This document shows, in pieces, positions 42,221-45,719 of a stretch of 64,000 bases of DNA. The stretch covers positions 766,927 through 830,926 of the forward strand of contig OY282361.1 of assembly GCA_958295645.1 (NCBI GenBank), in the 5' to 3' direction. The stretch comes from Longimicrobiales bacterium (GTDB lineage: Bacteria > Gemmatimonadota > Gemmatimonadetes > Longimicrobiales > Gaopeijiaceae). The translations under genes and the position numbers were made by a program. Position 1 is the stretch's first letter. Each line of letters opens with the position of its first letter. The notes under the pieces were generated by a model. The model had not been told where the DNA came from and made no database searches. It saw only the letters and a program-made list of their open reading frames with translations.

Positions 42221-43673
42221 CGACGAACTTCTCCACGTGACCAGCGTCCTGCGGCTTGCCGGCCAGGCTCGCGATCGCCAGCACCGGGAGATGCACGAGC
42301 AGTCCCAAGATTCCCTCGTGCACGCCGAAGGGCTTGAGCGCCGGATTCAGAAAGAAGAACACGGCGGTGCTCGCACCGGCGACGAGACCCCATAGGACGC
42401 CCGCGGTGGTCGCCCGCCTCCAGTACAAGGCCGCCAGCACCGCGGGCATGAACTGGCAGACGATGCCGTAGGAAGCCAGCAAGAGGTCGACGAGCGAAGC
42501 GTTCTCCTCCAGGGCCAGTGCGTAGGCCAGCGCGCCCACGCCCACGACCAGAAACCGCATCAGCAGGCGCTGCGCCTTGTCCGACAGCTTCCTGAAGGGC
42601 TGCACGCCGTCCTCGACGACCACGGAGGCTCCAGCGTGCAGCAAGGCGTCCCCGGTGGACATCGAGGCCGACAGCGCGCCGGCGCAGAACAACCCGACGA
42701 CGAGAGCCGGCAGCTCGGTGCGCACCACCAGGAACGGCAGCACGACGTCCGCCGACGGGGGCGCCTCCGGGAAGAGGACACCGGCGAATCCGATGAGGAA
42801 GACGGGAATCAGGAACAACTGAAAGGTGGGGAAGAGGACGACGGTTCGCCGGATCGTGCGGTCGTCCTTGGCCGTGAACGCCTTCATGAAGAGGTGCGGC
42901 AGCATGGTGAATCCGATCGCGCTCACGAGGATGGCGGTCGAATACGCGCCCCAAGTCCACGGAGCGCCGGCGCCGTCGAGTCCAGGAAACGACAGCAACT
43001 CGGGCCGCTCCGACAGGATTTGCTCGAACATGGGTCCGACTCCGCCGTAGAGCTTGCTCGGCAGATAGAGCCCAAGGGTCCAGGCGATCGCCAACATGAA
43101 GATCCCCTGGAAGGCGTTCGTCCATCCCACCGCCGAGACGCCGCGCGCCAGCACGTAGACCATGACGACCCCGTACGCCACCGCCGCTCCCGCCCAGAGC
43201 GGAATGCGCCCGTCGGTCACGGCCTCGATCACGATGCCCGCGCCCCTGATCTGGATCGTCACGTAGGGCACGAAGGCCGCCAGCGTCAACGCCGCCATGA
43301 GCGCCGACAGCCCGCGCGACGGAAACCGGCCGGTCAGCAGCTGAGCCTGCGTAACGAAGCCGAACCGCCGCCCCAAAGCCGCCACCTTGGGTCCGACGGT
43401 GTACCACGGAGCCATGCCCAGAACGCCGTACGAAAGAATGTAGAAGGCAGCCGCGCCCCGCGAATACGCCCATCCCGGCCCACCCAGGAAGGCGAAGGCG
43501 GAGAACACCGACGCCCCCGTGATGAAGTACATGACCACCAGGCCGAAGTCGCGGTCGCCCGCCACGTATCCCTGCACGCTCTTGGAGGCCCGTCGGCCGG
43601 CCAGCAGCCCCACGGCCAGCGTCGCGGCCAAGTAGGCGGCGATGACCAGGGTTATGAGCGTGAACTTATCCAT
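42213..43673 (-). CDS. Sodium:solute symporter (SSS family)
   Basis: 486 aa, about 13 predicted membrane helices. MDKFTLITLVIAAYLAATLAVG start, then ASKSVQGYVAGDRDFG, SAFAFLGGPGWAYSRGA and the SSS signature-like GLFCAGALSASMSTGDALLHAG. The substrate cannot be told; organic acids or amino acids are usual for this branch. ATG at 43673 sits inside the end of the upstream DUF3311-like gene. The pair is typical of a symporter with a small membrane partner. Confidence 0.92.
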   Translation of the reverse strand: MDKFTLITLVIAAYLAATLAVGLLAGRRASKSVQGYVAGDRDFGLVVMYFITGASVFSAFAFLGGPGWAYSRGAAAFYILSYGVLGMAPWYTVGPKVAALGRRFGFVTQAQLLTGRFPSRGLSALMAALTLAAFVPYVTIQIRGAGIVIEAVTDGRIPLWAGAAVAYGVVMVYVLARGVSAVGWTNAFQGIFMLAIAWTLGLYLPSKLYGGVGPMFEQILSERPELLSFPGLDGAGAPWTWGAYSTAILVSAIGFTMLPHLFMKAFTAKDDRTIRRTVVLFPTFQLFLIPVFLIGFAGVLFPEAPPSADVVLPFLVVRTELPALVVGLFCAGALSASMSTGDALLHAGASVVVEDGVQPFRKLSDKAQRLLMRFLVVGVGALAYALALEENASLVDLLLASYGIVCQFMPAVLAALYWRRATTAGVLWGLVAGASTAVFFFLNPALKPFGVHEGILGLLVHLPVLAIASLAGKPQDAGHVEKFVDV

Positions 43674-43950
43674 GCATGGACTTGGACTGGGATGCTGCTT
43701 CGGGCGGCGACTCGCCTTCCAAGCGGCTCCTGCGGGCCTGGCGGGCGCCGGTGCGCTCGCGGGCCGCGTCCATGCGCCAGAACAGGAACAGGCTGCCGAG
43801 CAGCCAAGCCGCCACCCAGGCCATCTGGCGGGGCAGACCGAGCACAAAGGGGTCCGGCGTGTTCACGAGCGTCTGGCCGGGCCACGTGACGGCCGCCGCG
43901 AACAGCAGGTGGTAAGCCCAGGCGATCCGGCCCCACGTCCTGAACGGCAT
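43666..43950 (-). CDS. DUF3311-like small membrane protein
   Basis: 94 aa with two hydrophobic segments (about residues 9-25 and 41-58) and the PDPFVLGLPRQMAWVAAWLL pattern typical of small partners of SSS symporters. The cytoplasmic tail is basic. Stop overlaps the symporter start by 8 nt. Function unknown; likely a stability or coupling partner. The DUF assignment is by pattern only. Confidence 0.7.
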   Translation of the reverse strand: MPFRTWGRIAWAYHLLFAAAVTWPGQTLVNTPDPFVLGLPRQMAWVAAWLLGSLFLFWRMDAARERTGARQARRSRLEGESPPEAASQSKSMHG

Positions 43951-43987
43951 CTTGGCCTCTTTCGCGCGGGTGTGTGGTGAACCTAGC

Positions 43988-44212
43988 CTAGCCTACTTCC
44001 GCGTGAGCGCTCCACTTCTCGAAGGACTGGCCGGACGCCGGCAAGCGGATGTCGATGGTCTTTCGAGGCGCGACGTCGACCGGCCGGGTCGGGCCAAGCT
44101 CCGTGCCGTTGGAGAGGTGGGCCACGGCGCAGGCAGCCAGCGCCACGGCGAGCAGGAGGCCGACGCTCGCCAACGAACGGCAACTCCGGCTGAGGCGTTG
44201 GCCGGTCTCCAC
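43988..44212 (-). CDS. Truncated lipoprotein paralogue (internal deletion)
   Basis: 74 aa, GTG start. Signal peptide with a lipobox LAAC (Cys28), then immediately HLSNGTELGPTRPVDVAP and a segment ending SFEKWSAHAEVG. These match the second half of the domain of its upstream neighbour (HLSNGVELGPTTPGDLAP ... FETWSAHAEFG). The linker and first domain half are missing, as is the acidic tail. It begins 3 nt after the neighbour's stop. Probably a decayed tandem duplicate; whether it is still made is unknown. Confidence 0.6.
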   Translation of the reverse strand: METGQRLSRSCRSLASVGLLLAVALAACAVAHLSNGTELGPTRPVDVAPRKTIDIRLPASGQSFEKWSAHAEVG

Positions 44213-44215
44213 GGG

Positions 44216-44761
44216 TCAGTCCTTGCCCTCGTGCTCGCCCTGCTTCTTGCCTTCGCCCGATTCCTCCTCGTTGCCGGATTCGCCGGACTCCCGTCCTTCG
44301 TGCTCGTCGTCTTCTCCGTCGTGTTCGCCTTCGGCTCCGCCGAATTCGGCGTGGGCGCTCCATGTCTCGAAGGCATCGTCGGAGGCCTCCAGGACCACCT
44401 CGCGACTCTCGCCGGGAGCCAAGTCGCCCGGGGTCGTCGGCCCAAGTTCGACGCCGTTGGACAAGTGGACCTCCACACGCACGCTCGTCAGTGGTTCCGC
44501 GCCGACGTTCTCCACCGTGCCCGTGAAGGCGTTGGCCTGTTCGTCGTAGGCGAGCATCAAGCGCGACCCGGCGTGCTCGTGGTCGTAGGTCTCGTCCTTG
44601 GCCAGCTGCTCGGCCGATTCCTCCGCGCCGTCGGGCGCCGCGAGTTCGGCCTCGCCGGCCTCCGCGGACTCTTCGACGTACGCGTCGTCGCCGTCGCCGG
44701 ACGGGCCGCAGGCGACCAGGAGGCATGCCGTCGCCGACAGGAGTCTCGTGCTTCTCGTCAT
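44216..44761 (-). CDS. Lipoprotein with FxLYD-like domain and acidic tail
   Basis: 181 aa. Lipobox LVAC (Cys18) after a short signal peptide; an acidic linker (about 19-62); a small beta-sandwich-like domain (about 66-141: AFTGTVENVGAEPLTSVRVEV, LAPGESREVVLEA) resembling FxLYD/DUF3426-type extracellular domains; a Glu/Gly/His-rich tail from about 145. GGAGA lies 8 nt before the ATG. Function unknown; the charged tail could bind metal ions or polymer. The downstream gene is a shortened copy. Confidence 0.75.
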   Translation of the reverse strand: MTRSTRLLSATACLLVACGPSGDGDDAYVEESAEAGEAELAAPDGAEESAEQLAKDETYDHEHAGSRLMLAYDEQANAFTGTVENVGAEPLTSVRVEVHLSNGVELGPTTPGDLAPGESREVVLEASDDAFETWSAHAEFGGAEGEHDGEDDEHEGRESGESGNEEESGEGKKQGEHEGKD

Positions 44762-44812
44762 CTTGATTTCTCCGTTCGTGGTGGTGGTTCCTCGGACGCC
44801 GATGCGCTTGCC

Positions 44813-44840
44813 AAGATAGCCGCTTGCGCCGCAAGGTCAA
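44813..44840 (-). promoter_or_regulatory. Candidate promoter of the lipoprotein genes
   Basis: Minus strand TTGACC (44840-44835) and TATCTT (44818-44813), 16 bp apart, about 52 bp upstream of the ATG at 44761. The sequence context is GGCTATCTTGG. Confidence 0.5.
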
Positions 44841-44927
44841 TGAACGAGGGTCTTCGTACCTGGGCAAGGGGACTGACGCCGGACAGCCGAGCAGTCGCCG
44901 TGCGACCGGGTCAAGGAGAGGGTGGAG

Positions 44928-45719
44928 CTAGCCGCCACCGCGCCGACGCTTCTCGACGAACGCCCTGACGCCCTCCTGGCCGTCGTCGGAGGCGAAGGCC
45001 TCGAGGAACAGCTCCTTCTCCAGCGCGAGGCCGGCAGACAGGGGACGTTCGCCGGCTTCGAGCACGGCCTTCTTGACGAGCCGCAGCGCCACGGGGCTCC
45101 AGCGGGCCATTCGCGTCGCGACTTCGCGAGCTTTCTCGAGATGATCGCCCTCGTCCACCAAGAACTCGATCAAGCCGATGCGGTGGGCCTCCTCGGCATC
45201 GACGAGGTCGCCGGAGAGGCCGAGACGGAGGGCCTGGCCGGGTCCCACCAAGCGGGCGAGGCGCTGCGTGCCACCGGCGCCTGGGATAAGGCCGAGGCGG
45301 ATCTCGAACTGGCCGAACCGGGCGGTGGCGTCGGCGACTCGGACGTCGCAGGCGAGCGCGAGTTCGGCGCCGCCCCCAATGCAGAAGCCGTGGACGGCGC
45401 AGACCACGGGCTTCGGAAACTCGGCGAGCGCCTCGTACACGCGTCGCCTGTCGTATACGGCGCGTTGCTCCTCGGGCGTGCGAGAGGCGAACTCGTTCAC
45501 GTCGGCGCCCGCCACGAAGGCGTCGCCCGCGCCGTGGAGGATGGCGACCTTCACGTCGTCGCGGGCGGCCAAGGCGTCGAAGGCGTCCGCGAGGGCTTGA
45601 CGCACGGCCTCGTTCAAGGCGTTCAGCTTCTCGGGGCGGTTGATCTCCACCTCGCCGACGGCGTTGCGCACGGAAACCCGCACGGTGCGGGAATCGGAGA
45701 GTTGTGGCGCCGAATTCAA
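44928..45719 (-). CDS. Enoyl-CoA hydratase/isomerase (crotonase family), first copy
   Basis: 263 aa, TTG start. Crotonase fold with the oxyanion-hole and catalytic Glu residues in CIGGGAELALACD and FGQFEIRLGLIPGAGGTQRL. Hydrates 2-enoyl-CoA esters. Overlaps the upstream dehydrogenase gene by 4 nt. Last gene of the cluster that begins at 47936. Confidence 0.92.
   Translation of the reverse strand: MNSAPQLSDSRTVRVSVRNAVGEVEINRPEKLNALNEAVRQALADAFDALAARDDVKVAILHGAGDAFVAGADVNEFASRTPEEQRAVYDRRRVYEALAEFPKPVVCAVHGFCIGGGAELALACDVRVADATARFGQFEIRLGLIPGAGGTQRLARLVGPGQALRLGLSGDLVDAEEAHRIGLIEFLVDEGDHLEKAREVATRMARWSPVALRLVKKAVLEAGERPLSAGLALEKELFLEAFASDDGQEGVRAFVEKRRRGGG

Follow-up and report, generated by a model that had tools for sequence, protein, structure and literature searches.

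A tandem FxLYD-type lipoprotein gene reduced by in-frame deletion in a Longimicrobiales genome: a probable paralogue remnant

In a 64,000-nucleotide stretch of a Longimicrobiales genome (contig OY282361.1; the whole stretch that was analysed is referred to as the window), two lipoprotein genes lie one behind the other, and in the second a signal peptide and lipobox are followed almost directly by the latter half of the domain found in the first. The question raised by this locus is whether the short gene is what a deletion left of a second full-length lipoprotein or a mini-lipoprotein that is still in use, both of which were proposed in an earlier note made from the letters of the DNA alone. 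The evidence leans to a remnant, without settling the matter, and we regard the short gene as probably an ordinary paralogue remnant of an in-frame deletion, persisting as an open frame beside a full copy.

The gene pair

The two genes, and all of the features described for them here, are on the minus strand, with the genes arranged head to tail. Gene A (44216–44761), which starts with ATG, encodes a predicted lipoprotein of 181 aa consisting of a signal peptide, the lipobox LVAC, an acidic linker, one FxLYD-type beta-sandwich domain (44339–44599, corresponding to columns 2–88 of an 88-column family profile built here) and an acidic tail. The stop codon of A is separated by 3 bases (CCC) from the GTG start of gene B (43988–44212, 74 aa), which includes a signal peptide, the lipobox LAAC and a C-terminal half-domain (43991–44122; profile columns 45–88, 62.6 bits) that shares 56 % identity with the second half of the domain in A (E 2e-11). 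Three codons, the deletion junction (44120–44128), lie between the codon for the lipobox Cys (44129–44131) and the H codon (44117–44119) with which HLSNGTELGPT... begins, and the gene finishes with AEVG and a stop codon. Hence, the 74-residue gene reported earlier, with its signal peptide, lipobox and half-domain beginning at HLSNG, is indeed present at these coordinates. When the whole genome was searched using A as the query (E<=1), the matches were A itself and B only, and B as the query gave four weak matches (E 0.04–0.28).

By eye, both A and B appear to have a charged start, a hydrophobic stretch and a lipobox ending in Cys (LVAC and LAAC, respectively). For B, an origin of these features by chance is unlikely, as a rule that was fixed after B had been seen recovered a comparable signal peptide and lipobox from 2 of 20000 sequences obtained by dinucleotide shuffling of the N-terminal DNA of B, and from 51 of the 127905 frames present in the window. 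A ribosome-site-like AAGGA (44213–44224, identified by eye) lies among the final codons of A, at a distance of 7 bases from the GTG of B. A promoter-like TTGACC-16-TATCTT (44813–44840), which is a consensus match only, lies upstream of A and was the single match in a promoter scan of 43600–45000. Gene B would probably be transcribed together with A and use its own ribosome site at the stop codon of A. No RNA families were found in 43400–45200.

A full-domain B in the nearest relative and the size of the loss

The nearest relative found to carry the pair is G025, a Longimicrobiales MAG (same place as public record CATQHQ010000001), in which A and B are in the same order as in the window. The 57 relatives listed are all from genera other than that of the window. 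The B of G025 (L011:1513–1908) includes the whole domain and, like the B of the window, ends with AEVG and a stop codon and has no acidic tail. From the lipobox Cys to HLSNG there are 62 residues in G025 and 3 in the B of the window, which is thus shorter by 59 codons (177 bp). A tree was built from 45 domain sequences, picked from 162 as the nearest to the four A and B domains, and in this tree, which rests on few columns and includes many weak forks, the two Bs are together with support of 89/89, below the tool's mark for strong support, and the two As with 99/92. As the Bs group with one another and the As likewise, and the B of G025 has a whole domain, the B of the window has lost about 59 codons in frame. 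By the same grouping, the two-gene state predates the divergence of these genomes, and the loss is on the window's side. An in-frame deletion should be recognizable from a relative whose B is an orthologue with the full domain, as is the case in G025.

The earlier note had proposed a duplication followed by a deletion. The in-frame deletion is borne out by the full-domain B, and the local duplication is half shown, in that the paralogues predate the G025 split. When A and B of both genomes were forced into one clade the p-AU was 0.233, which neither establishes nor rejects, from the sequences compared, a local duplication that would make A and B each other's closest kin. The acidic tail is absent from B, as had been noted, and was not part of the deletion, because AEVG and a stop codon also end the B of G025. 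Two full-length lipoproteins in a related genome had been put forward as a finding that would count against a deletion; G025 does have two full copies as far as the domains are concerned, yet these represent the state before the deletion and do not refute it. Loss of the segment through an error in assembly or sequencing is very improbable, as a slip of approximately 177 bp that preserves the frame would be unlikely, and the contig is 2.89 Mb long in a genome that is 95.7 % complete.

The position of the loss in the fold was examined using an AlphaFold2 model of the domain of A (27 sequences, mean pLDDT 85.9), which has seven strands (residues 21–26, 29–36, 41–48, 54–63, 75–77, 82–88 and 96–102). 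HLSNG starts at residue 62 of this model, and B thus retains strands 5–7 and two residues of strand 4, with strands 1–3 and most of strand 4 of the predicted seven-strand sandwich lost. A model of B itself (AlphaFold2, 19 sequences, mean pLDDT 57.9, pTM 0.26) was without secondary structure, and the remainder of B is not predicted to fold.

The N-terminal ends of the two Bs are less straightforward to compare. In G025 B, the first possible start codon (ATG, GTG or TTG) in the frame of the domain is a GTG, located nine codons ahead of the lipobox Cys. An upstream ATG is 80 nt from the Cys, compared to 81 nt from the GTG in the window, and is likely to be the start that would be expected, G025 B having no good in-frame start; it is not in the frame of the domain, and the frame it opens stops after 17 codons. 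A first test of N-terminal similarity, using another start point and codon shuffles, was not significant (P 0.38 gapped, 0.07 ungapped). A second test from the upstream ATG gave a DNA score of 54 versus 27.9 ± 6.6 in single-base shuffles (P 0.0004), with milder scoring, a start point picked after the first result and a weak type of shuffle. Because the start point was post hoc and the single-base shuffle weak, the test was repeated with both scorings and other shuffles. The score was reached by 7 of 5000 dinucleotide shuffles with the mild scoring and 29 of 5000 with the stricter scoring, by 21 and 72 of 5000 codon shuffles, respectively, and, on the two scorings, by 1 and 16 of 20000 random segments taken from 22 kb of G025. 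The N-terminal likeness of the two Bs, as measured on their DNA, appears to hold and is modest.

These tests bear on another route by which the parts of B might have been joined, namely that a stray half-domain came to lie behind an unrelated signal peptide, or that A-like copies recombined. Such a route would fit with signal peptides in the two Bs that are only weakly alike, one of the two test approaches having been not significant, and with the undecided question of whether A and B are closest kin (p-AU 0.233, above). However, from the upstream ATG of G025 the N-termini are about equal in length and more alike than shuffles, and the window and G025 have the gene order and the stop in common; we consider the route quite improbable. 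As its upstream ATG is out of frame, the B of G025 looks to be damaged too: translation may start at the GTG, the frame may be broken, or the assembly may contain an error. If the frame is broken, both lineages would be losing B by different routes, which favours dispensability.

On one side the pair is flanked by a gene for a sodium:solute symporter (Pfam PF00474), in front of which is a DUF3311-like gene (below the Pfam cut-off, at 19.2 bits), and on the other side by an enoyl-CoA hydratase-like gene that was named by eye. Eight relatives were searched (E<=1e-60), and the symporter was found in seven and the hydratase-like gene in six, with the two close together in four (G024, G089, G011 and G025). 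In G024, G089 and G011, only a DUF3311-like gene (named by eye in G011) is between them and there is no lipoprotein gene, and the pair in the window (region 43666–45719) looks to have been inserted at a junction that lacks lipoproteins in these three. In G025, approximately 1.4 kb with no match to the window separates the hydratase-like and DUF3311-like genes (L170), and the A-B pair is on its other contig, away from this junction. As A and B are found at different places in the window and in G025, the pair appears to have moved together, by transfer or rearrangement.

Constraint on the remaining half and rarity of half copies

Over the 43 codons shared by the two Bs there are 21 base differences and 7 residue differences, compared to a mean of 13.5 residue differences when the same changes were placed at random (P 0.00055). 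The dN/dS between the Bs is 0.142 (NG86) or 0.045 (YN00), and between the As over the same stretch 0.157 or 0.173, respectively; with one relative, changes from before and after the deletion are inseparable, and the low value may wholly predate the deletion. Against the family profile the half-domain of B scores 121.2, A 121.1 and G025 B 132.2, and the half in B outscores 89 of 161 full copies. Three rare residues in B, namely R in column 12 (2/161), R in column 19 (1/160) and K in column 20 (6/161), hint at relaxation, and such signs are few and weak. The reading frame, signal peptide, lipobox and stop are all intact. Hence, as there is no clear decay in the 43 codons, either the deletion happened recently or constraint on the remnant persists.

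When the B of G025 was used as the query, 37 of 121 family genomes had a match, the window's own genome counted, and among the matches listed only the B of the window begins in the second half of the query. In the phylum, 49 of 395 genomes had a match. Partial matches were found in four of these besides that of the window (L146, L147, L152 and L153), and all four were read and rejected as convergent mini forms. The acidic linker and half-domain of L146 are in different frames, the domain of L152 is split over two frames, L147 matches only profile columns 23–63, and in L153 the half-domain is part of a long open frame where no front half was recognised. Identical short forms, which the earlier note would have taken as an argument for function, were not seen among the 121 family and 395 phylum genomes searched. 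Tandem copies are usual in this FxLYD-type lipoprotein family: among 80 loci from named genomes, the best 80 of 109, two domains are found in separate frames on one strand within 1.5 kb at 17 loci, and a single frame holds two or more domains at 8. Half copies are rare.

Two or three such domains in one frame were also seen in some relatives from the Actinomycetota and Chloroflexota (L047, L053, L058, L078 and L085). The reverse loss occurs in a member of the Poribacteria (L032:4766–5050), where a 95-codon frame covers only the signal peptide and the initial part of the domain. In G011 (L131:2066–4800), two FxLYD-type proteins flank genes that by eye are BlaI-type repressor-like and M56-type membrane peptidase-like, and the spacing of matches in other family genomes suggests the same arrangement. 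A scan of IMG/VR for viral relatives gave none that could be confirmed.

A working mini-lipoprotein, in which the lipid-anchored half-domain acts alone or adds strands to the sandwich of A, is possible. Its positive support is an intact frame, including lipobox and stop, in a remnant without clear decay, and the AAGGA ahead of the GTG would be in keeping with it. However, no second half-domain is among the matches listed from the family genomes, none of the four further partial copies from the phylum is a clean short lipoprotein, AlphaFold2 yields no fold for B, and a full A adjoins, and we consider a working form unlikely. The particular version in which half of an FxLYD sandwich, anchored by lipid and translated from the transcript that also encodes A, serves as a strand donor to A or as its regulator is highly improbable. 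A short form in use would mean that a deletion had given rise to a mini-lipoprotein.

In the reading we prefer, B is the remainder of a second lipoprotein, full-length and from the family of A. A single in-frame deletion (about 177 bp) would have taken the short linker, strands 1–3 and most of strand 4, fusing the signal peptide region at its end to mid-domain sequence, and as the deletion kept the frame, the gene is still open. Its product would be a lipidated piece of 47 residues with three of the seven strands, which is unlikely to fold and likely to be degraded, and with the full copy A alongside the loss of B would be tolerated. The frames, the orthology with the full-domain B of G025, the size of the loss and the strands lost from the model are the parts of this reading that are shown. 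The locus clearly illustrates how a member of a widespread lipoprotein family, in which tandem copies are frequent, can lose half a fold with its frame and membrane anchor still open. For annotation purposes, B should not be labelled as a full FxLYD lipoprotein.

Known families, structures and deletion remnants

Gene A passes the cut-off for NCBIfam NF038353 (FxLYD domain-containing) with 28.1 bits against 23, the B of G025 falls narrowly under it at 21.6 bits, and the B of the window, in which only the second half of the domain is present, has no match at E<=1. In Pfam, the matches of A were under the cut-offs and B had none at E<=1. A PDB sequence search gave no match at E<=1, and Foldseek with the A-domain model found nothing at E<=0.001. 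In a structure comparison the domain of A reached a best Z of 8.1, among ordinary beta sandwiches, and YjhA (3cfu) and a DUF1425 protein (3o0l) were aligned to the model with Z of 7.3 and 7.2, though a Z of about 7 is common among beta sandwiches and other, unlisted families may fit as well. A literature search within one open-licence collection found no description of the FxLYD domain or of truncated lipoproteins.

Paralogue remnants left by in-frame deletion are a general kind. Gene B is like them in having a full-domain orthologue, a single clean in-frame loss and an intact paralogue adjoining it. It differs in that it keeps a signal peptide, a lipobox and a stop, and in that the rest is as yet without clear decay.
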